This document shows positions 2,209 through 23,523 of a stretch of 23,957 bases of DNA, in pieces (within the stretch, counting starts at the first letter, position 1; every line of letters starts with the position of its first letter). The notes below the pieces were generated by a model. The model ran no database searches. It was not told where the DNA came from and was given only the letters and a program-made list of their open reading frames with translations. Source of the stretch: a virus. The stretch spans positions 1 through 23,957 of the IMG/VR virus record IMGVR_UViG_3300007755_000023; one strand, written 5' to 3'. A program made the translations under genes and the position numbers.

Positions 2209-5145
2209 TTAAATATTGGCTATAGAAAACTCCGCAAATGTATTGATACCCTTTTTGGATTTCAACATCTGTTCTACCTTCTGTTGATTGGCATGACTGA
2301 GATTATCAAACACTTTGCACATTGCCGATGCACTGTAAACATCAACTTTATGTCCATCAATTTCAGCGGCCTCTTTACTATCAGCAATCTTACGAATGAT
2401 ATCCATAGATTCAAAAACTTCTTCTTTTATTCCCTTATCCTTCATAAACTTTTTTATTCTCGGATCATCAAAAAACTTTTTGAATGCGGGTCGAATATCA
2501 CCCTTGGGACCTTCCTTTTTAAGAATATCCTCAACATCATCCCAAACCTCATCATCGCCAATCACATTGAAATACTTTTTATCTGCGCCCTGTGCCGGAA
2601 TAGGTTTTTTCATCAACTTCATCACTTTATCATATTTCGCTTGAGTGTCTGGAATGGCCCAGGTGCCTTCAAGGATATATTCTTCTCGGGCCATACGACC
2701 TTTTACGACATCCTTCCGTTTCTTTTCCATACCTTTCAAACGACCACCGGGCTTCAACTTTTTGATTTTGCCTCCACCCTTTTCAAATTTATCAATTTCT
2801 TTATCACTTACAGCAGACGGTTTTACCGATCTTATTTCATCGACAGCAACTTCCTTCAACTGACCGTTATCATGGACTCGTAGAATGCCATACCCACTTA
2901 ATTCTCGGTCTGCATCCTTAACTAATTTTTTAAGTTTTTTAGAATCACCTTTAACTTCAACACTGTCACCTCTGACACCTCCATCACCTTTAACATCTTT
3001 ACCCCTAAGACCAAAATCTCTCAGTGTATTTTTAAACTTTTTACCATCTTCAACATCAAAGGTTACTGTAATGGCAGCTTCGTCAAGTGATTTTTTTTTT
3101 ACATTCGCTATTGCGAATTCAGCAAACTTATTTACTCCTGCTGGAGACTTCAACATCTGCTCCACTTTCAGTTTATTACCGGCACTCAGTTGGTCAAACA
3201 CTTGGACCATCGCATTGGCACTATGAATATCAACTTTGGTATCATTGACTCTACCGTGCGCTTTACTATCAACAATCTTTCGTAGCTCATCAATGCTTTC
3301 ACCAAAACTTTCACCAACAGGATCTTTATCTTCGTCTTCCTTCTCACCGTTTTTCTTTTTCCGCTTAGCATCAATAGCTTTTTTCAAGGCGGGTGGGAGT
3401 TCGCCTTCGGAAAATTCTTGCTGTTCTTCTTTAGTCCAGTTCTTGTCAATGTAATCAAAAAACTTTTTCTTTTTCTCATCATCCATCTCAGCAGGACTCT
3501 TTGCACCAAACTTTTTCAGTGCCGCTTGAAAAAACTTCTGATACTCTTCCTTACTGCCTTCTGTCATCATAGCTCTATGATGTACACGGGATTCAAAATG
3601 TGTATCTTTGAAATCGTCCATGTCATCAAAATCGTTCTTATCACCATAACCACTCTTTACATACCAGTTCCAAACATCTTCGACACTCTTACCAGAAACT
3701 TCCCATTCATCCCAACCAGGATTTACATCTTTATGCTTTATCTTTCCTTTGAGTTTATATTTCGCTAAATCCTTTTTCATCCTTTTAGGATCCGATACAT
3801 CAAAATAACCTTTGACTGCTTCAGCCAACTTCCAACCGTTCTTCAAATACTCAGGTTCATCTTTCTTATCTATGACAATAACGTAATTCTTTTTGACGAC
3901 CATAGTTTCTTTGTCGGGATTAGTCAACTGACGTGCTCGCAGCTCTGCCGGAGCTCCACGGTAACGTAGTCCCTTCTTAGCTTCATGGACAACTTCTTCG
4001 TTGGCATCTTGCAACGCAGCCTTTACTGTAGGCTCATCAGCAAGTCCTCGTTTGATTTTTTCAATCTTCTTCCAAGCGCCTGTCATGTTGCCTTCCATAT
4101 CATAAGCAATCTTGATGGCCTTCTTGACATCACTATCACGGAACTTTCCTTCCTCTAACTCATCTTCTTCTTTGACTGTAGACTTTGATTTATTGAGTCG
4201 TTCTTTTCGCATTGCGATGCGTTTCAAAGTCTCTTTGTATTCTTTTGAACGGCCGTCGACCTTTTTAGGAGCAGTTGCTTCAGCATCTGTAGCTTCTTCT
4301 ACTTCAGGAGTCGTCGGAGTATCCGCTTGTGCTACGTTAGCACCTGCCTTCCAGACACTTAAGATAGTATCTTCAAGACTTCCACTTTTTGATTTTAGAT
4401 ATTTTTCTGTCATAGTTTCTTCGGTTGCCATGCTGTCCTTGATTTTAGTTTGTATTGCGGTCAGCTTCTGAACACGCTCCTGTGCTTTAGCAATTTCTAA
4501 TTGCGCCTGTGCAATAGCCCTTGCTATTTTTAGTTCTTTCTCCTTTGCCCGGTCGAGCTTTTCTTTATTGGGATCTCCTTCTTCAAAAATAGATTCGTTC
4601 TTGGCAACTTTAGTAGCAATAGCCATCTTGACTGACTTCCACCGTTCACCATATTTCTTTTTCATCTCTGAATCATCTATTTTTTGAGCGATTTCCTCTC
4701 GACGTTTTAGTTCTGTTGAACTCAATTCTCTTTCATCTATATTTATAATTTCTTCTTTTCTCAAACGAGGCTCCCGTCTATTCCAAGATGGGTCAGTTAG
4801 TTTGAGATTAGTTTCATCATTATTCAAAGGATTATTATCTTTGTGATGAACATCTTTACCGTCTCCTCTGGCGGCCTTACCGTTCTTTATCATAAGACGG
4901 CGGGCTCTCAGACGAGCGGCATTCTTTTCTCTCTGTTCGGGTTTGGAATGATAGTTGTCATATTCTTTTCTATAATTACGTTGTGCCTCTTCAATTTGTT
5001 CGGCAGACATTCTACGTTTACGTTTATAGACTTTAGGTTTCTTCTTAACTACCACAGTGGAATCATCATCTCCAGTTCCAGGCACTGCTGTACCTGTAGC
5101 ATTAGTGGGAGCATCTTCTTCCAAATAATGACTAAATCTTTTCAT
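2209..5145 (-). CDS. 978-aa modular protein with HNH motif; candidate injected internal polyprotein
   Basis: The N-terminus MKRFSHYLEED resembles the T4 capsid targeting sequence with an LxE prohead-protease site. An HNH endonuclease-like segment follows at about residues 85-125 (DVHHKDNNPLNNDETNL; His100, His101, Asn105, Asn113). After a charged helical region (130-330) come short modules, among them FRDSDVKKAIKIAYDM (about 335-350), KEEYQKFFQAALKKFG (532-547), two copies of a 66-residue module (616-681 and 912-977), and TWAIPDTQAKYDKVMKLMK (828-846). Many module borders carry (L/I/M/F/V)xE followed by Gly or Ala, at residues 332, 388, 529, 580, 689 and 826, similar to prohead-protease sites. 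Similar modules occur in structural proteins of marine T4-like phages, as far as I recall. Processing, packaging and nuclease activity are inferred. It overlaps the preceding gene by 14 bases. Confidence 0.8.
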   Translation of the reverse strand: MKRFSHYLEEDAPTNATGTAVPGTGDDDSTVVVKKKPKVYKRKRRMSAEQIEEAQRNYRKEYDNYHSKPEQREKNAARLRARRLMIKNGKAARGDGKDVHHKDNNPLNNDETNLKLTDPSWNRREPRLRKEEIINIDERELSSTELKRREEIAQKIDDSEMKKKYGERWKSVKMAIATKVAKNESIFEEGDPNKEKLDRAKEKELKIARAIAQAQLEIAKAQERVQKLTAIQTKIKDSMATEETMTEKYLKSKSGSLEDTILSVWKAGANVAQADTPTTPEVEEATDAEATAPKKVDGRSKEYKETLKRIAMRKERLNKSKSTVKEEDELEEGKFRDSDVKKAIKIAYDMEGNMTGAWKKIEKIKRGLADEPTVKAALQDANEEVVHEAKKGLRYRGAPAELRARQLTNPDKETMVVKKNYVIVIDKKDEPEYLKNGWKLAEAVKGYFDVSDPKRMKKDLAKYKLKGKIKHKDVNPGWDEWEVSGKSVEDVWNWYVKSGYGDKNDFDDMDDFKDTHFESRVHHRAMMTEGSKEEYQKFFQAALKKFGAKSPAEMDDEKKKKFFDYIDKNWTKEEQQEFSEGELPPALKKAIDAKRKKKNGEKEDEDKDPVGESFGESIDELRKIVDSKAHGRVNDTKVDIHSANAMVQVFDQLSAGNKLKVEQMLKSPAGVNKFAEFAIANVKKKSLDEAAITVTFDVEDGKKFKNTLRDFGLRGKDVKGDGGVRGDSVEVKGDSKKLKKLVKDADRELSGYGILRVHDNGQLKEVAVDEIRSVKPSAVSDKEIDKFEKGGGKIKKLKPGGRLKGMEKKRKDVVKGRMAREEYILEGTWAIPDTQAKYDKVMKLMKKPIPAQGADKKYFNVIGDDEVWDDVEDILKKEGPKGDIRPAFKKFFDDPRIKKFMKDKGIKEEVFESMDIIRKIADSKEAAEIDGHKVDVYSASAMCKVFDNLSHANQQKVEQMLKSKKGINTFAEFSIANI
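2215..2412 (-). repeat. Protein-level repeat, copy 2 of a 66-aa module
   Basis: This segment encodes residues 912-977, the last module of the 978-residue protein, from ESMDIIRKIADSK to FAEFSIAN. It matches copy 1 at 3103-3300 without gaps. It follows an IxE-type site (IKEE at residues 906-909) and ends one residue before the stop codon, so the domain would form the extreme C-terminus or a separate processed peptide. Confidence 0.85.
3103..3300 (-). repeat. Protein-level repeat, copy 1 of a 66-aa module
   Basis: This segment encodes residues 616-681 of the 978-residue protein, from ESIDELRKIVDSK to FAEFAIAN. It aligns without gaps to the C-terminal copy at 2215-2412, with 39 of 66 identical residues by hand count. 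The most conserved blocks are VEQMLKS, FAEF and the KVD..SA.AM core. The divergence shows an old duplication of a folded, probably helical domain. Confidence 0.85.
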
Positions 5146-6046: not shown

Positions 6047-6502
6047 TCACGCAATATTAGCGAACACCTTACATCTGCCATTATCCAATTTCATATATTT
6101 AAAGTTGATACTCAATCCACCGTCATGCCTATGAGAGATACCATCATCATTGACCAACTGGCCATCTTCGGTGCCACTGCCATCATTTCCATAACGGCCA
6201 CCAAACTGTGATAACGGTGAAGAAACTTCTCCTTCCCCTACGATGGTATGTTCATCGTAAATATCGACCTGACCAAACTCAAGGCCGACTCTCATAAGTT
6301 TTTGTCGTAATTCAGCTATAGCGTGATTTGCATTTAGATACTCTTTATCAGCAATAGACCCAACAAAGGCATTGACACGTTTACGAACTTCGGGATCAGC
6401 AATGTCATGGACATCCATCCCACCATCTTCAACGCCAATAGAATTGTGGTGCATGATAGCACTTTGGGTACTATTCTCATTAAAGGTCTTATACGTTTTC
6501 AT
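6047..6502 (-). CDS. Conserved phage protein with capsid-targeting-like N-terminus, 151 aa
   Basis: The N-terminus MKTYKTFNENS begins with the same MKTY as the T4 internal proteins (MKTYQEFIAEA), and Phe-Asn-Glu at 7-9 is a weak version of the prohead-protease site. The body contains DPEVRKRVNAFVGSIADKEY and LRQKLMRVGLEF, a helical domain I recall from marine T4-like phages, then a Gly/Asp/His-rich loop (LSQFGGRYGNDGSG, ISHRHDGGLSINF). Function is unknown; an internal or capsid-associated role is inferred from the N-terminus and position. It overlaps the 52-residue gene by 14 bases, with GGATT upstream of the ATG. Confidence 0.75.
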   Translation of the reverse strand: MKTYKTFNENSTQSAIMHHNSIGVEDGGMDVHDIADPEVRKRVNAFVGSIADKEYLNANHAIAELRQKLMRVGLEFGQVDIYDEHTIVGEGEVSSPLSQFGGRYGNDGSGTEDGQLVNDDGISHRHDGGLSINFKYMKLDNGRCKVFANIA

Positions 6503-8297: not shown

Positions 8298-8305
8298 TAT
8301 TTATA
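8298..8305 (-). promoter_or_regulatory. T4-type late promoter, exact TATAAATA
   Basis: The minus strand reads TATAAATA here, the -10 element read by the gp55 sigma factor with the gp45 clamp in T4. It overlaps the stop of the nucleotidyltransferase gene. A transcript starting about six bases downstream would have a leader of roughly 25 bases containing AGGAG before the ATG at 8266. The exact match, position and downstream structural gene support the call. Confidence 0.7.
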
Positions 8306-9350
8306 ATACTTTGTGCTTTTGTAAATAGACAAGGAAGTCTTTATCATTCAATCCCTTTATCATACTAGCAGCCTTATGTATAGCAACTGCTGAGTTATCA
8401 CCTCGTTGTATAAATTTCTTATACCACTGTACTGCCACATCGTAACTTTTCTTCTTTAAAGTTCTACCAAGAAAACCCTCATGTTCAACATCTTCAAGTT
8501 CTAATTCAGCATATGTTTTATTCACCTTTGCAGGCTTTAATTTAAAACCTGAATCGGGTATGATTATTTCATATTTGTCAGTAGTTTTTGTTGATGTTTC
8601 TTTAGGACTGCCATCTTTTTTTAATACTTGAAAACTATTTTTACTTAATTGTTTTACCCAGTTTTTTTGTTTCTTACCTTTGGGATTAGTCCAAGTCAAC
8701 TGAAATATTTTCTTTTTAGTTGCCCCTGCTCCCAGTCGATACTCTCTTTCTTCATCTTCATCTAATTCAAACCATTCATTCATACGTTTTACCCCCATAG
8801 CTTTCTGTATATCTCTGAATAATCGCATAGCGTCAGAACTGTTAGCAAACTTTGGTGGTAAACCTTGTTTGAAACTATCAAAATCATCTTGTGAAGCCGC
8901 AGCCCTCATTTTAGAAGCTGACATACCTGATGCCCCTTCTGAATCTGGATCACGTTCTCCTGCACTGATGACCTTGATACTGTCAAACTTATAATACCCG
9001 TGTCGTTTACCCTCGACGCCGTTATAGGCATTTAACACCTCTTGAAAATCTTTTACTCTATCTGAACCAGCTATAAAAATTATAGTTGTAAAGCCTTCAT
9101 TATATAAACTCACAGCCACTTCTATAGCCGTTCGTGCTGAACTTTTGATAATATTTTTAGCATGCTTTGGGAACATCTTTTTCATATATTTCAATTTATC
9201 ACTATAGCCTAAAGGATTCTTTTTTCTATCCTGTGATTGACTTATATAGATACGATAGTTTTTACCCCCCACGGACTTTGCTTTGTCCATGAGAAGTTCA
9301 TGCCCAATAGTAGATGGATTGAATCGCCCAAATGCAAATGTCATTTTCAT
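8301..9350 (-). CDS. Nucleotidyltransferase (cytidylyltransferase/adenylyltransferase superfamily) with C-terminal extension, 349 aa
   Basis: The N-terminal domain (residues 1-155) has the nucleotidylyltransferase fold motifs: FGRFNPSTIGHELL with the TxGH signature at 14-17, and SASKMR at 144-149, matching the ISSTxxR-type motif. YISQSQDRKKNPLGY and IIFIAGSDR are further conserved blocks. Relatives in marine T4-like phages are often annotated as cytidylyltransferases. The substrate is unknown; NMN, a phospho-sugar or an RNA end are all possible. Residues about 200-349 form an extra domain with a beta part (KIFQLTWTNPKGKKQ) and a helical end (WYKKFIQRGDNSAVAIHKAA). It lies in one late operon with the ligase-like protein, so a nucleic-acid or NAD role is plausible. 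Unlike that protein it has no capsid-targeting N-terminus. Confidence 0.85.
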   Translation of the reverse strand: MKMTFAFGRFNPSTIGHELLMDKAKSVGGKNYRIYISQSQDRKKNPLGYSDKLKYMKKMFPKHAKNIIKSSARTAIEVAVSLYNEGFTTIIFIAGSDRVKDFQEVLNAYNGVEGKRHGYYKFDSIKVISAGERDPDSEGASGMSASKMRAAASQDDFDSFKQGLPPKFANSSDAMRLFRDIQKAMGVKRMNEWFELDEDEEREYRLGAGATKKKIFQLTWTNPKGKKQKNWVKQLSKNSFQVLKKDGSPKETSTKTTDKYEIIIPDSGFKLKPAKVNKTYAELELEDVEHEGFLGRTLKKKSYDVAVQWYKKFIQRGDNSAVAIHKAASMIKGLNDKDFLVYLQKHKVL

Positions 9351-9662: not shown

Positions 9663-10898
9663 TTATGTCCAATTCTTGGCCACCGTGAAGTTGGCCCTAC
9701 TAAATTCCATCCTATCAACCAACTTCAATGCATTGCCGACATGATCTATGGCCACGAACCCCTCAGGTGCAGTAACCTTATATCCGTCAGACGTTTTTAT
9801 AAATGATGCTACAGAACTTTTAATTTTTTCAAGTTTTTTTACCATATAATCTTTCGCAACTCTTAATGTTATGTATGATGCGAATACAAAATAAATAGAT
9901 GTCTTATATTTAGTTAATTCTTTTCGTCCATCATCTAATATTTTTTGATATTGTTTCTTAGCAGCATCACTTCTTACACTATTAATCTTTTTCTCTAACT
10001 TATCTACATAAAACTGTTCAAACTCTCCAGCTAATCGTTTGGTGTCTTGAATACCTGCACCAGAACGAATTTGAGAATTGAAAAATATTTTTAAAGATGA
10101 ACCTACTTCCCAAGGATCATCCTTAGGATTGATTGGTTCTAAAATCTTTAAATAAGATTTGGCCTTCTTCAAAGAACCTCGGGCTATATTCAAAACTCTA
10201 TTAAACTTATCAACTTCATCAGTAGTCATGGTTACAGTACCCGACTCATCTTGGAAGGTGGCATCAGTAGACCATACCGCAGTATTCTGTTTCAGTTTAG
10301 AACTATCAACACCAAACGATGCGGACAAGGCCGACATAGTATCGCCTGAATAGGTTGTATGCCACACCACACCTATCCTTGCCCGAGACATAGATTTTTC
10401 TAGTTTACTACCTTCTGGTACTGCATAAGTAATCGTATTTGGTGTGAAGGTAATCATACTCTCACCATCAATAGTTTGAGAAGTCAAATCATCTTTAATA
10501 AAGAGTATATCGCCCTGCCATATGCCGGGTATTTTTAATTTCTTAAAATGATCCAAAGCAACATGAAGTTTTGGTCCGGGGCCACTAGGATGATTCTTAT
10601 CTATATCTGCATGGGTATAATTTATTTTAGGTGTCTTATTGAAAATAGACTTTGTACCCACAAAAAACTTACCGTTCTCCGGATTAGTGCCAGCAAAGAT
10701 GGCAGGTGCACCATCCCATTTCACCGTAACACTAACAGACTTGCCGGTGTGACCCGCCAACATATCCCGCAGACTTTCTAGAAAATGAATGGCATTCTCA
10801 CCACCGACGATACCATTATCTATGATATCATCTTCAAGATGTTCCAGATGAGTATTCCTATCTTCTATTAAAAAATCTTGAAAATTAAAAGATTTCAT
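9663..10898 (-). CDS. Ligase-like nucleotidyltransferase with KxDG motif and capsid-targeting-like N-terminus, 411 aa
   Basis: The sequence TVKWDGAPAIF places Lys60-Trp-Asp62-Gly63 as a KxDG motif, the nucleotidylated lysine site of ATP-dependent DNA/RNA ligases. GIWQGDILF (125-133) could be motif III, and EGFVAI (379-384) followed by ALKLVDR (390-396) matches motifs IV and V near the C-terminus. A long helical insertion (about 230-370) lies between them, so this is not an ordinary ligase. I recall relatives in marine T4-like phages as proteins of unknown function, possibly DUF6267. The N-terminus MKSFNFQDFLIED fits a capsid targeting sequence with an L-I-E cut site at residue 12. DNA or RNA end joining is inferred. 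The start overlaps the previous stop as TAATG. Confidence 0.8.
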   Translation of the reverse strand: MKSFNFQDFLIEDRNTHLEHLEDDIIDNGIVGGENAIHFLESLRDMLAGHTGKSVSVTVKWDGAPAIFAGTNPENGKFFVGTKSIFNKTPKINYTHADIDKNHPSGPGPKLHVALDHFKKLKIPGIWQGDILFIKDDLTSQTIDGESMITFTPNTITYAVPEGSKLEKSMSRARIGVVWHTTYSGDTMSALSASFGVDSSKLKQNTAVWSTDATFQDESGTVTMTTDEVDKFNRVLNIARGSLKKAKSYLKILEPINPKDDPWEVGSSLKIFFNSQIRSGAGIQDTKRLAGEFEQFYVDKLEKKINSVRSDAAKKQYQKILDDGRKELTKYKTSIYFVFASYITLRVAKDYMVKKLEKIKSSVASFIKTSDGYKVTAPEGFVAIDHVGNALKLVDRMEFSRANFTVAKNWT

Positions 10899-11323: not shown

Positions 11324-12889
11324 CTAAATTCTTACAGTTTGATTCAATAGGGTATCATTGACAATCATTTCATATCCAAAAACAGCTCCTAAAGCTTGAA
11401 TTCCATCTCTAGCAGCATCTTTAATTTTCTCAATCGCTTCTGTAAAGAAACTTGCAAGTTTAGCACCAAGTTCTTTAATTTTTGCTACAAAATTACCAGT
11501 CAACTCTTTAACTTTATCAAAAAATTTCCATTCAGAAAGATAACCTTCATCTAACTGTTCGTCAAGTTTATTATATTCTTCATACAGCATATTTTCAGCA
11601 TGATCCATTTCTTCCATAAGTTTTCCCACACCAATACGAATAGTCTGAAAAACATTATAACCCTTATGTTTGTGTGTTGAAGATGATTTCCAACTAACAT
11701 CCAAATTCATTGATTTAGCATATTTTCCAACAACACTAGAAGAAGATGATGCTAAATCATAGATTTGAATTTTAAAGTCTGCAACATTATCAGCCGGTAC
11801 CCAAGATAACATATAGTGTGCTGCTTGTTTTGAACTTTTACCGAATTTATAATTTCCAGTAGATGCTTCATATACAAATTCTAATTTATATTGATCCGAG
11901 GACTTGAAAAGATTATTCAAAGCATCACCTACAGCAGTTGAATTTCTTTTAAATGCTCCATCAACATAACGAGTAAATTTTTGATTAGTTGCAGATAATG
12001 TAGTTTGCAGTTCTTTAGGTTGTGGACCTTTGGCTAATACTTTAGGTAAATCTCGTCCTAAAGTAGGTCTACCAGTAGTACCTAATTCTCCCACACCGGA
12101 CCAACCCCTTTTTACTTTCTTGACGGCTTTATATTTTCCTTTTCCACCAACAGCTCCGGGAGGCCAGCGTTTAGCAAAGTCATCTTCTAATTTTTTAATT
12201 TTAGCCTTATCTCTACTTACTTTCTTTTTAGCCTTTTTCAGTTCTTCAAATTCTATATCAAATTTTTCTAATTCTTTTTTAGAAGCCACAGCTAAATCAT
12301 ATAAAGTTTTATGTCTTCCAGCATCATCTTTTAATCTTTGTAAATTTCCAGCTGATGCATAATATCCTTCAGTCGTAACTTGACTTAATTTATCTATACT
12401 AGAAATAAGTATTTGAACAAGTTCCGAATTTTCAAAATTAGGATTAACTTCTCTAGCCGCCGCAACAGCTGTTGCTGTAGATTCACCTTTCTTACCGCTC
12501 ATTAGTTGAGCACCGTCAGCATTCTTTACAGAGTATTGATGTCCACCTAATGTAATATCTGTTTTTGATGTTACATTACTACCACCATTCTCTTTCCAAA
12601 ATGAAGTAAGGGAACCCTTTTCTTGAAAATCAAAGCCACCGCCCTTAGGAGCTCCAGCATTAATTATATTTTGACCAAATATTTGTAAATTCTTTAGGTC
12701 TGCTGTAGGATTACCAGTATTCCAATATTTTTTTGCCTTTTTAAAATTTCCATCATCGGCCATTGCATCTTTTAGGATTTTAGGTTTACCTTTAGATACT
12801 GATTCATACGCAACACCCAATACAGTTTCTAATGCTGTAGAAACTTCTGTAGATTCCTCATACAGCATATGTTGTTTAAAAGATTTCAT
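11324..12889 (-). CDS. 521-aa late protein with capsid-targeting-like N-terminus; possible PD-(D/E)XK-like core
   Basis: The ATG at 12889 follows TTGGAG at suitable spacing; the reading from 12901 would need a TTG codon within that site. The N-terminus MKSFKQHMLYEES resembles a capsid targeting sequence with an L-Y-E site. Residues 108-136 (SKTDITLGGHQYSVKN, then GAQLMSGKKGES) have Asp111 and SxK at 120-122, which may be a divergent PD-(D/E)XK nuclease core. A Lys/Glu-rich coiled coil covers about 200-240. An L-D-E/G site at about residue 448 precedes a helical C-terminal segment (GYLSEWKFFDKVKELTG). It is the first gene after an exact late promoter. It could equally be a plain internal structural protein; the nuclease idea is weak. 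Confidence 0.75.
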   Translation of the reverse strand: MKSFKQHMLYEESTEVSTALETVLGVAYESVSKGKPKILKDAMADDGNFKKAKKYWNTGNPTADLKNLQIFGQNIINAGAPKGGGFDFQEKGSLTSFWKENGGSNVTSKTDITLGGHQYSVKNADGAQLMSGKKGESTATAVAAAREVNPNFENSELVQILISSIDKLSQVTTEGYYASAGNLQRLKDDAGRHKTLYDLAVASKKELEKFDIEFEELKKAKKKVSRDKAKIKKLEDDFAKRWPPGAVGGKGKYKAVKKVKRGWSGVGELGTTGRPTLGRDLPKVLAKGPQPKELQTTLSATNQKFTRYVDGAFKRNSTAVGDALNNLFKSSDQYKLEFVYEASTGNYKFGKSSKQAAHYMLSWVPADNVADFKIQIYDLASSSSSVVGKYAKSMNLDVSWKSSSTHKHKGYNVFQTIRIGVGKLMEEMDHAENMLYEEYNKLDEQLDEGYLSEWKFFDKVKELTGNFVAKIKELGAKLASFFTEAIEKIKDAARDGIQALGAVFGYEMIVNDTLLNQTVRI

Positions 12890-12911: not shown

Positions 12912-12919
12912 TATTTATA
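12912..12919 (-). promoter_or_regulatory. T4-type late promoter, exact TATAAATA
   Basis: The minus strand reads TATAAATA in the 35-base gap between the gp41 stop and the 521-residue gene. Initiation about six bases downstream would give a short leader carrying TTGGAG before the ATG at 12889. It marks the border between the replication genes and the late genes, which is where such a promoter is expected. Confidence 0.75.
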
Positions 12920-19934: not shown

Positions 19935-19963
19935 AGTATATCAAATATTTTTCTTTTTGTCAA
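19935..19963 (-). promoter_or_regulatory. 43: Strong sigma70-type promoter for gp43 (TTGACA-17-TATACT), likely leaderless
   Basis: The minus strand reads TTGACA, a 17-base spacer (AAAAGAAAAATATTTGA) and TATACT, followed by only six bases (TAATGT) and then the gp43 ATG. A normal start about seven bases after the -10 falls on or next to the A of the ATG. The -10 touches the stop codon of the preceding gene. The element resembles the uvsX promoter at 16208-16236, including TATACTTA and the A-rich spacer. Confidence 0.8.
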
Positions 19964-21431
19964 TGGTACCAGAGGGCATCTTATCGCGAGAAGTCCAATC
20001 GGAAAGTATAAATTTTTTATTTGGATTTACAGATACTTTGAAACGTATTAGCAAATCTCTGTTCACCAACATTTCACTAAAACTATCTTCGGTTGTCAAA
20101 CCAAAAAGAACATTATCGTAAACCCTATTGTTAAAAGTAATAGATAATTCTATTATAGGTCGTTCTTCTATCTTTTTAGCAAAGGCTCGTTCTGGTTTAC
20201 TTATACCCTTCAAATCAGAAACAAAAGTTTTTTTATTTTTCTTCCAATGAACCTTATCTTTTTTTATTTCAAAATCATCTACATGAAACATTGTTGCATC
20301 TGTTCCATTACCCGTATCCATTTTTGCCCGAATAAGATCCGGTATACCATCAACAGATATAGACTCTATAAATCCACACTCTTGAGAAAATCTATTTGTT
20401 CTGTGCTGGGTATATTGTAAATACTCAAGAACTATTTTGAAGATTTCTTTATCCGTTTTTGCACCAGCCGGTTTCTGCGGCCATTCTGTAACATCATAAG
20501 ACATAAACTTGGAACGTATACCAGGAGAACCATTGACTTCCAAAATAACAGGTTCACCTTTTATAACACAATGGTCAACACCTACCATATATCCGCCAGT
20601 AGTTCGTGATGCGGCCAAAACAATATTCTTCTCCACATCAGTTAAAGAATATGGTTCTGTCTCTGCTCCCATGTGAACATTACTTCTAAACTCTTCCTTG
20701 TCGGTAATTCGTTTAGCAGAACCAATAATACGATTATTCAATACCAAAGTTCTAACATCAAAATCTATATCCAACCATTCCTGTAAAAGTATAGCTGCAT
20801 CATATTTCCAAAGAGCCTCACAAACAGAAACTAAAGATTCCATGCTATCTACTTTAGAAACACCAATGCCTTGTGTACCAGTTAGAGTTTTTATAATTAC
20901 TGGGAACTTACCACCAATTCGGTTATGAGTATCCTCGATGGACTTTCTACTGTTCACAATAGAAGTACTGGGAATAGCTACATTATGCTTCATCAACTGA
21001 ATTGCTGATGCCATTTTGTTATCACACAGCAACATAGATTCCAAATCGTTTATCATAAAACAACCAGCACTTTCAAACGTACTTGTTAGTGCTTGACCAC
21101 TCATGGTCATAATTGCTCCACGTCTTGCAAATACAACTGCAGACTTGGTTGTGACTTTTTCTTTAGAATCTTCGCCATCATAATTAGAAACAGTCAAAGT
21201 ACCCATTTCAACATCCTGATCCGATATCCAGGCTTCTTCAACATTTACAGAAATTTGCTTTATACCCAAATCTTCACAAACTTCAGAAATAATTTTATTA
21301 ACTGTATTCTCACCTTGATCTATACCCAGGACAACAACTTCTATCTTGGACTTTTTATCAGGTAATTCATGCTTTTCTTCCCGCACAACTTGCCGGGCCC
21401 GACGAATCATCGAAAAGGTTTTTGTAGTCAT
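19941..21431 (-). CDS. RimK-like ATP-grasp ligase fused to a RimB-like aspartic protease domain, 496 aa
   Basis: Residues about 90-340 are an ATP-grasp domain like RimK, which adds glutamates to the C-terminus of ribosomal protein S6: KTLTGTQGIGVSKVD (181-195), LLQEWLDIDFDVRTLV (215-230), EEFRSNVHMGA (246-256) and VILEVNGSPGI (295-305). Residues about 350-480 resemble the retropepsin-like RimB/DUF785 family, with AKMDTGNGT (Asp372-Thr-Gly) and IIELSITFNNRVYDNVLFGL. In Pseudomonas, RimB trims the glutamate tails made by RimK. Both domains keep key motifs, though DTGA is DTGN and LxGR is LVNRD here. The N-terminal 90 residues are unassigned. No Shine-Dalgarno sequence precedes the ATG; CATAAATA, one base from a late promoter, lies just upstream. 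Target and activity are inferred. Confidence 0.88.
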   Translation of the reverse strand: MTTKTFSMIRRARQVVREEKHELPDKKSKIEVVVLGIDQGENTVNKIISEVCEDLGIKQISVNVEEAWISDQDVEMGTLTVSNYDGEDSKEKVTTKSAVVFARRGAIMTMSGQALTSTFESAGCFMINDLESMLLCDNKMASAIQLMKHNVAIPSTSIVNSRKSIEDTHNRIGGKFPVIIKTLTGTQGIGVSKVDSMESLVSVCEALWKYDAAILLQEWLDIDFDVRTLVLNNRIIGSAKRITDKEEFRSNVHMGAETEPYSLTDVEKNIVLAASRTTGGYMVGVDHCVIKGEPVILEVNGSPGIRSKFMSYDVTEWPQKPAGAKTDKEIFKIVLEYLQYTQHRTNRFSQECGFIESISVDGIPDLIRAKMDTGNGTDATMFHVDDFEIKKDKVHWKKNKKTFVSDLKGISKPERAFAKKIEERPIIELSITFNNRVYDNVLFGLTTEDSFSEMLVNRDLLIRFKVSVNPNKKFILSDWTSRDKMPSGTIDKKKNI

Positions 21432-22522: not shown

Positions 22523-23523
22523 TAGTCAATCAAACTGGAAACAATGTGAGCCATAACACGATACGGATCAGCATTTGATGCAGGTCGTCTATCTTCAAGA
22601 TATCCTAACCACCCATGGTTAACAGTATGAATAGGGATACGGATACTAGCCCCCCTATCACTAACGCCGTAACTAAACTTTTTAATTGATTGTGTTTCAT
22701 GTTTACCTGTCAATCTTTGTTCATTAGATGAACCATATGCCCTGATAGCGCCTGTATGAGTATGTTTCAACTTTTCACAAGTAGCTTCAAAATAAGGCCG
22801 GCCACCTACATTTCTCATATAGTCATTAGAAAAATTCGTGTGCATACCCGATCCATTCCAATCACCTTTTTGTGGTTTGGGATGAAAATTGATAGTCACA
22901 TCATGTTTCTCAGCGATACGTTGTAGAATGTAACGTGACATCCACAAGTCATCGCCTGCACGAATACCACTACCTAACACTTGATATTCCCACTGGCCTA
23001 AGGCAACTTCTGCGTTAGTCCCGGTAATACCAATGTCGGCGTTCATACAGGCCTCAGCATGACGGTCAGCAATTTCACGGCCGATTACATTATCAGCACC
23101 TACTCCACAATAGTAGTCGCCCTGTGCTCTGGGTTTACCTCTTGCAGGCCAACCCAAAGGACGTCCATCTTTATACATGAAATATTCTTGTTCAAAACCA
23201 AACCACCATTCGTCACTAATAAGATTCTGACAATGGGTTCTGGTATTTGACTTATGCGGTTCGCCATCAGCAGTCATCACTTCACACATCACATAAGAAC
23301 CTTCCAACCCTGGAGCCGTTCGTGTTGCATCTGCCCGAATACGGTCGATAGTTCTATACTCTGCAACCGGCATCAAGTTACAATCCGAACTGGATCCTGT
23401 TGCCTGTTGTGTAGATGAACCATCAAAGGACCACAAATCAGCATACTCGTCAATCTTCACTTTACTCCGTAGAGTCGGCTCAGGTTTATAACCATCAAGC
23501 CAAACATATTCAAATTTTCTCAT
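22522..23523 (-). CDS. glnII: Glutamine synthetase type II, 333 aa
   Basis: The enzyme makes glutamine from glutamate, ammonia and ATP. It is the GSII (eukaryote-like) form: LWSFDGSSTQQATG (31-44), WWFGFEQEYFMY with Glu111 and Glu113, GDYYCGVGADNVIGRE, GITGTNAEVALGQWEYQV with Glu172 and Glu179, KGDWNGSGMHTNFS with His228, NEQRLTGKHET, RGASIRIP and YLEDRRPASNADPY. All metal and substrate motifs are in order, so it is probably active. It lacks about 25-40 residues against typical GSII, mostly at the N-terminus. Its ATG overlaps the CmoA-like stop (ATGA) and its stop overlaps gp62, so it is fully built into the early operon. It could relieve nitrogen limits on nucleotide synthesis in the infected cell. 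Confidence 0.95.
   Translation of the reverse strand: MRKFEYVWLDGYKPEPTLRSKVKIDEYADLWSFDGSSTQQATGSSSDCNLMPVAEYRTIDRIRADATRTAPGLEGSYVMCEVMTADGEPHKSNTRTHCQNLISDEWWFGFEQEYFMYKDGRPLGWPARGKPRAQGDYYCGVGADNVIGREIADRHAEACMNADIGITGTNAEVALGQWEYQVLGSGIRAGDDLWMSRYILQRIAEKHDVTINFHPKPQKGDWNGSGMHTNFSNDYMRNVGGRPYFEATCEKLKHTHTGAIRAYGSSNEQRLTGKHETQSIKKFSYGVSDRGASIRIPIHTVNHGWLGYLEDRRPASNADPYRVMAHIVSSLID

Follow-up and report, generated by a model that had tools for sequence, protein, structure and literature searches.

Gene setting and modules of the locus

The window, by which we mean the whole 23,957-nucleotide stretch analysed, carries on its minus strand an ORF of 978 amino acids (2209–5145), which begins with ATG, ends with the stop codon at 2209–2211 and lies in a gene cluster downstream of gp41; another public contig (L001) holds the same ORF at 100%. 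Coordinates of the gene and its features are collected in Table 1, where a slash marks the predicted cut. A T4-type late promoter motif, TATAAATA, precedes the cluster, and the same motif or CTAAATA occurs 10–47 nt before the corresponding gene in Melnitz, HTVC008M, P-HM1 and C48C1. The promoter evidence is positional, because a general count finds the motif at 23 of 293 ORFs with capsid-targeting (CTS)-like starts and at 83 of 1011 other ORFs, with no difference between the two. A second TATAAATA is located at 8298–8305 on the minus strand, 39 nt before a gene start. Elsewhere, the window encodes a phage glutamine synthetase (22525–23523, minus strand; Pfam Gln-synt_C, 1.5e-17) and a RimK-like ATP-grasp protein (19944–21431, minus strand), whose C-terminal part weakly resembles a putative ATP-dependent zinc protease family.

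Table 1. Positions in the window of the 978-residue protein, its modules and sites, and associated features
Feature	Positions	Strand	Remarks
T4-type late promoter motif TATAAATA	12912..12919	-	30 nt before the cluster's first gene, after gp41
Gene with CTS-like start MKSFKQHMLYEE/S	11327..12889	-	ATG at 12889
DUF6267 gene, CTS-like start MKSFNFQDFLIE/D	9666..10898	-	
Neighbour gene, CTS-like start MKTYKTFNE/N	6050..6502	-	read from sequence
Proposed head cargo polyprotein, modular, 978 aa	2209..5145	-	
Leader MKRFSHYLEE, capsid-targeting-like, residues 1–10	5116..5145	-	weak phrog_36347 match
DAPTNATGTAVPGTGDDDSTVVVKKK module, residues 11–53	4987..5115	-	also in Melnitz 172-aa homologue
Site IEE/A, residue 53	4984..4995	-	inserts at this point in L002, L003
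HNH nuclease-like bead, residues 54–189	4579..4986	-	Pfam HNH_3 E=0.0044, below cut-off; phrog_4590 E=3.5e-11
Site FEE/G, residue 189	4576..4587	-	VDE/A in L002
Helical/coil region (IAQAQLEIAK, EKYLKSKSGSLED), residues 190–332	4150..4578	-	
Motif VEE/A, residue 284	4291..4302	-	not conserved in L002
Site LEE/G, residue 332	4147..4158	-	
Bead M333, residues 333–388	3982..4149	-	pLDDT mostly >90; 95 ORFs
Site VHE/A, residue 388	3979..3990	-	
Bead without counterpart in L002, residues 389–442	3820..3981	-	flanked by two hxE/A sites; alignment
Site LAE/A, residue 442	3817..3828	-	absent from preliminary description
Bead, residues 443–529	3559..3819	-	alignment and structure model
Site MTE/G, residue 529	3556..3567	-	
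Bead M530, residues 530–580	3406..3558	-	own gene in L021, MKTYKSFIE/GSKEEYQ
Site FSE/G, residue 580	3403..3414	-	
Linker peptide(s), residues 581–616	3298..3405	-	predicted fragments
Sites VGE/S (612) and FGE/S (616)	3295..3318	-	
Bead M615, first copy, residues 617–689	3079..3297	-	module profile and structure model
Site LDE/A, residue 689	3076..3087	-	
Predicted alpha/beta bead with basic tail, residues 690–826	2668..3078	-	
Site ILE/G, residue 826	2665..2676	-	GTW-type junction; P1 Glu in 39/39 distinct contexts
GTW bead M827, residues 827–912	2410..2667	-	93 matches
Site VFE/S, residue 912	2407..2418	-	IHE/A before same bead in L002
Bead M914, residues 913–978	2212..2409	-	diverged second copy of M615

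A Pfam scan of the protein returned a weak HNH match and no peptidase domain, and a PDB sequence search gave nothing significant; in named phage records, single modules match and there is no near-full-length counterpart. The HNH bead contains the core VHHKDNNPLNN and matches PHROG HNH families, which suggests a nuclease cargo. Across 76 ORFs of the fetched loci the same bead has many unrelated in-frame partners and frequently follows VEE; it may be a mobile element or a shared cargo.

The window, a genome fragment, has no gene of the Peptidase_S77 (gp21) family. In one search of related records the family exceeded the cut-off in 10 of 14, namely in every record of about 70 kb or more, including the named phages Melnitz, HTVC008M, C48C1 and P-HM1, and the four negative records are contigs of 42–55 kb; in a second search of mostly short records it did so in 2 of 17. 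The gp23 of one record carries AAMLSE/SP near its N-terminus. Two jumbo phage contigs of 316 kb and 328 kb (L124, L137) encode GTW-bead proteins together with Peptidase_S77.

The full-length AlphaFold model has confident small domains between low-confidence stretches (mean pLDDT 65.8, pTM 0.29). The preliminary description had held that burial of the sites in folded domains would speak against processing, and on this point the model mostly does not count against it: P1 or P1' is in coil at 8 of 13 sites, and 8 of 13 lie no more than 3 residues from a low-confidence stretch, whereas sites 53, 388 and 442 fall inside predicted helix in a low-confidence model. At sites 616 and 912 the first helix of a bead begins. 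Modelled as a pair from their own alignment, the two C-terminal beads fold well (mean pLDDT 84.6); site 826 then lies in the start of the model, which has low confidence, and site 912 adjoins the inter-bead loop. Neither the full-length model nor the C-terminal pair has a significant Foldseek match in the PDB, and no match to viral models passes E 0.001; the best of these (probability 0.9–1.0) include uncharacterised marine phage proteins.

A Glu-containing motif at module borders

The preliminary description had listed seven prohead-protease-like sites, at residues 332, 388, 529, 580, 689 and 826 and, as LEE/D, after the N-terminal residue 10, and all seven are present; seven further matches occur at residues 53, 189, 284, 442, 612, 616 and 912. 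Written as hxE/GAS, that is [LIMFV]xE/[GAS], the motif occurs 13 times within the protein compared with 4.2 expected from 2000 composition shuffles (P about 0.0005), and its hxE/GA form 10 times compared with 3.1 (P about 0.001), while the control motifs hxD, hxK, hxxE and hE are not enriched in the same shuffles. P3 is Leu or Ile at 5 of the 13 internal sites and Val, Met or Phe at the rest, and P1' of the leader site is Asp. The motif at residue 284 is not conserved in the relative L002 and is probably a chance match.

More telling is the behaviour of the borders among relatives, for which 240 loci were gathered from three scans of viral contigs, HMMs of four modules were searched in their ORFs, and similar upstream contexts were collapsed into distinct ones. 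The modules recur behind unrelated neighbours with the site kept at the junction. The motif stands at the module start in 31 of 39 contexts for the GTW bead, 25 of 31 for the KIVD bead, 17 of 26 for M333 and 11 of 16 for M530, a rate of 65–81% in contexts that partly share descent and are incompletely independent, compared with 14–19% at random positions in the same proteins. At module starts hxD and hxK reach 0–12%, with no enrichment of the matched motifs, and hxxE and hE are enriched weakly or in single modules. The earlier proposal that site placement at module starts exceeds chance is thus borne out. The 39 GTW contexts all have Glu at P1, never Asp; P3 is Ile or Leu in 28 and lacks a hydrophobic residue in 8, and P2 and P4–P12 have no consensus. 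This pattern is the L/I-x-E cleavage rule of T4 gp21 (PMC9026906).

In a broader count, N-terminal edges of all-versus-all ORF alignments show a peak of 94 hxE/GAS motifs per 5-aa bin, compared with 27–46 at 10–30 residues away, and no peak for hxK or hxQ. Across a dereplicated set of 68 string proteins, [LI]xE/[GA] occurs 162 times against 57 expected (2.9-fold), and the reversed motif is at 1.0-fold. Non-string ORFs are enriched as well, by 1.3–1.7-fold (1.7-fold for [LI]xE/[GA] in other long ORFs), so the excess is in part general and in part peculiar to string proteins; a grammar of helix ends may lie behind some of it.

Module gain, loss and stand-alone copies

L002 is 70% identical to the window protein over aligned residues, and because it and the truncated L003 have the same architecture, that architecture is, judged by these relatives, no assembly fault. 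L002 lacks the bead at residues 389–442, and its join reads ANEEVVHE/AVKG; after residue 53 (IEE/ or VEE/), L002 and L003 each insert a different segment. At the leader position they have MKRYGLWVEE and MKKYKWWVEE, and P1' after the leaders of the three proteins is Asp or Val rather than Ala or Gly. In the pair of the window protein and L002 alone, the motif Glu is kept no better than other Glu residues (7 of 11 compared with 50 of 72), a result due in part to alignment shifts and lost modules. In the isolate Melnitz, at the corresponding place in the gene order, a 172-aa protein consists of the N-terminal and C-terminal modules of the window protein with LMVE/D between them.

GTW, KIVD, M530 and M333 are also encoded singly or placed first in a protein, behind T4-like leaders and at the corresponding junction: MSKTYTKFMVE/GTW, MKKFKEFRQVDE/AKNL, MKTYKSFIE/GSKEEYQ and MTRYSTTMSEILYNIRE/GYSP. 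Similarly, MKTFRKLSKELEE precedes an HNH module. The majority of stand-alone M530 genes have a different N-terminus, MSFTGxxLGLTDSLIEASKK. Among Melnitz ORFs, CTS-like N-termini number 23 compared with 12 expected; this modest excess comes mainly from the gene cluster that follows gp41.

CTS-like leaders are also found on other kinds of protein. An NMNAT/cytidylyltransferase-like enzyme has one in Melnitz (L086, 7990–9942; MKKFSEIIE/A) and in L243 (2410–3675; MKVKNFSDYIVE/A), and may be a nucleotide or NAD enzyme packaged in the head; in the window the gene (8304–9350) lacks such a leader. A P-loop kinase-like protein starts with MIKFKEHFNIDE/G, followed by GGPGSGKS, in L243 (5536–5958), L248 (11742–12404) and Melnitz (65855–66520).

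A proposed prohead-processed cargo polyprotein

We consider it likely that the 978-residue protein is a prohead-processed cargo polyprotein of a marine T4-like (Kyanoviridae-type) phage, its encapsidation and cleavage being putative. In this model, a single chain of about ten small modules would be made late and brought whole into the prohead core by its N-terminal capsid-targeting-like leader. A gp21-type serine protease (Peptidase_S77) would then cut the chain at the leader and at the majority of module borders, each time after [L/I/V/M/F]-x-Glu. This would free about ten small proteins, for the most part neutral to basic and one of them with an HNH nuclease-like domain, which would remain with the DNA and then be ejected into the host. 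We infer cleavage, packaging, retention, ejection and the functions of the beads from the motif and from comparison. The beads-on-a-string reading of the preliminary description explains the comparative evidence best, in which the site is kept through module shuffling, and it fits the indels at sites, the CTS-led single genes, the protease in long relatives and the promoter motif. Its expectation of both basic and acidic small peptides held for the former: the predicted fragments have net charges of -1 to +10, being near neutral or basic, and none is strongly acidic.

Other explanations have to be weighed against this one. Genes for CTS-led internal proteins could have been fused, leaving internal sites that are uncut and a full-length protein that is packaged minus its first leader. 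The existence of the modules as CTS-led single genes agrees with such a history, as do CTS-like relics within strings, for example MKTFGQVISE/AKF before M333. At most internal junctions, on the other hand, only P3 and P1 of the CTS survive, and since the constraint at GTW borders falls on these two positions alone, decay, which would not spare just two, is a poor explanation; we regard fusion relics as unlikely. It is less probable still that the protein is of scaffold type, cut like T4 gp22, gp67 and gp68 with all fragments expelled and none serving as cargo. T4 core proteins are indeed cut at several sites into peptides that mostly leave (PMC9026906), and the fragments predicted here are also small, mostly 32–137 aa; however, several beads are confidently folded in models, one of them an HNH unit, two relatives have separate ORFs at the usual scaffold position before gp23, and the module set varies between phages, unlike a scaffold.

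The least credible alternative, to which we attach very little weight, dispenses with the protease altogether: helix ends followed by Gly or Ala in acidic linkers would yield hxE/G by themselves. The motif excess in non-string ORFs is what such a grammar would produce, but it does not account for an invariant P1 Glu in preference to Asp and a mostly Ile or Leu P3 at GTW borders, nor for borders where hxD and hxK are not enriched and hxxE and hE are so weakly or in single modules. Two further candidates were rejected, a gp22 homologue on grounds of gene position, downstream of gp41 rather than next to gp21/gp23, and a polyvalent protein with its own peptidase because the Pfam scan shows none.

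With moderate confidence, the prohead-processed polyprotein can be extended to a wider claim, namely that the abundant marine T4-like phages and some jumbo phages of 316–328 kb have a true viral polyprotein strategy, in which plug-in cargo modules behind one capsid-targeting leader would be shuffled by recombination at protease sites, freed in the prohead and injected with the DNA as a mixed payload. Polyproteins are typical of RNA viruses; in tailed phages, cargo made as one chain and processed in the prohead would offer a new means of loading injected proteins and of evolving them. A leader followed by hxE/G/A/S borders would also serve as a sequence rule for locating head cargo, perhaps including factors for counter-defence or takeover, in the unannotated genes of ocean phages. 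The isolates Melnitz and HTVC008M have pieces of the system, which makes it directly testable.

Comparison with known systems

The open-access papers searched include T4 CTS and gp21 work, and none of those found describes a prohead-processed cargo polyprotein. Three known systems come close. Giant-phage ejection proteins (phiKZ, SPN3US, 201phi2-1) are alike in being head proteins that a gp21-related protease cuts after Glu and that are then ejected; processing in SPN3US is propeptide removal (PMC7411985), whereas here the release of a string of beads is proposed. Polyvalent proteins of phages and conjugative elements are multidomain, are thought to be delivered with DNA and are split into units, for which embedded peptidase domains have been proposed (Iyer et al. 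2017, PMC5512222); the 978-residue protein differs in that no peptidase was found in it and splitting is assigned, as a proposal, to the prohead protease. T4 gp22, gp67 and gp68 are cut into pieces by gp21 and resemble it as single substrates with many L/I-x-E sites, here predicted, but they are scaffold, their fragments mostly leave the head and they form no string of mobile modules.

The closest likeness is to T4 IPI, IPII, IPIII and Alt, whose short N-terminal leaders end in a hydrophobic-x-Glu site. MKRFSHYLEE is of this type, with about 10 residues, basic and aromatic, and a hydrophobic-x-Glu end, and the gp21-family protease in the group, the small and often basic predicted products and the late promoter motif at the cluster head also recall the T4 internal proteins. 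In T4, each cargo has one gene and only terminal propeptides; here, on the other hand, there are about ten modules per chain, a site at nearly every border and exchange of modules between chains. The locus is thus best read as a new variation on T4 internal-protein biology.
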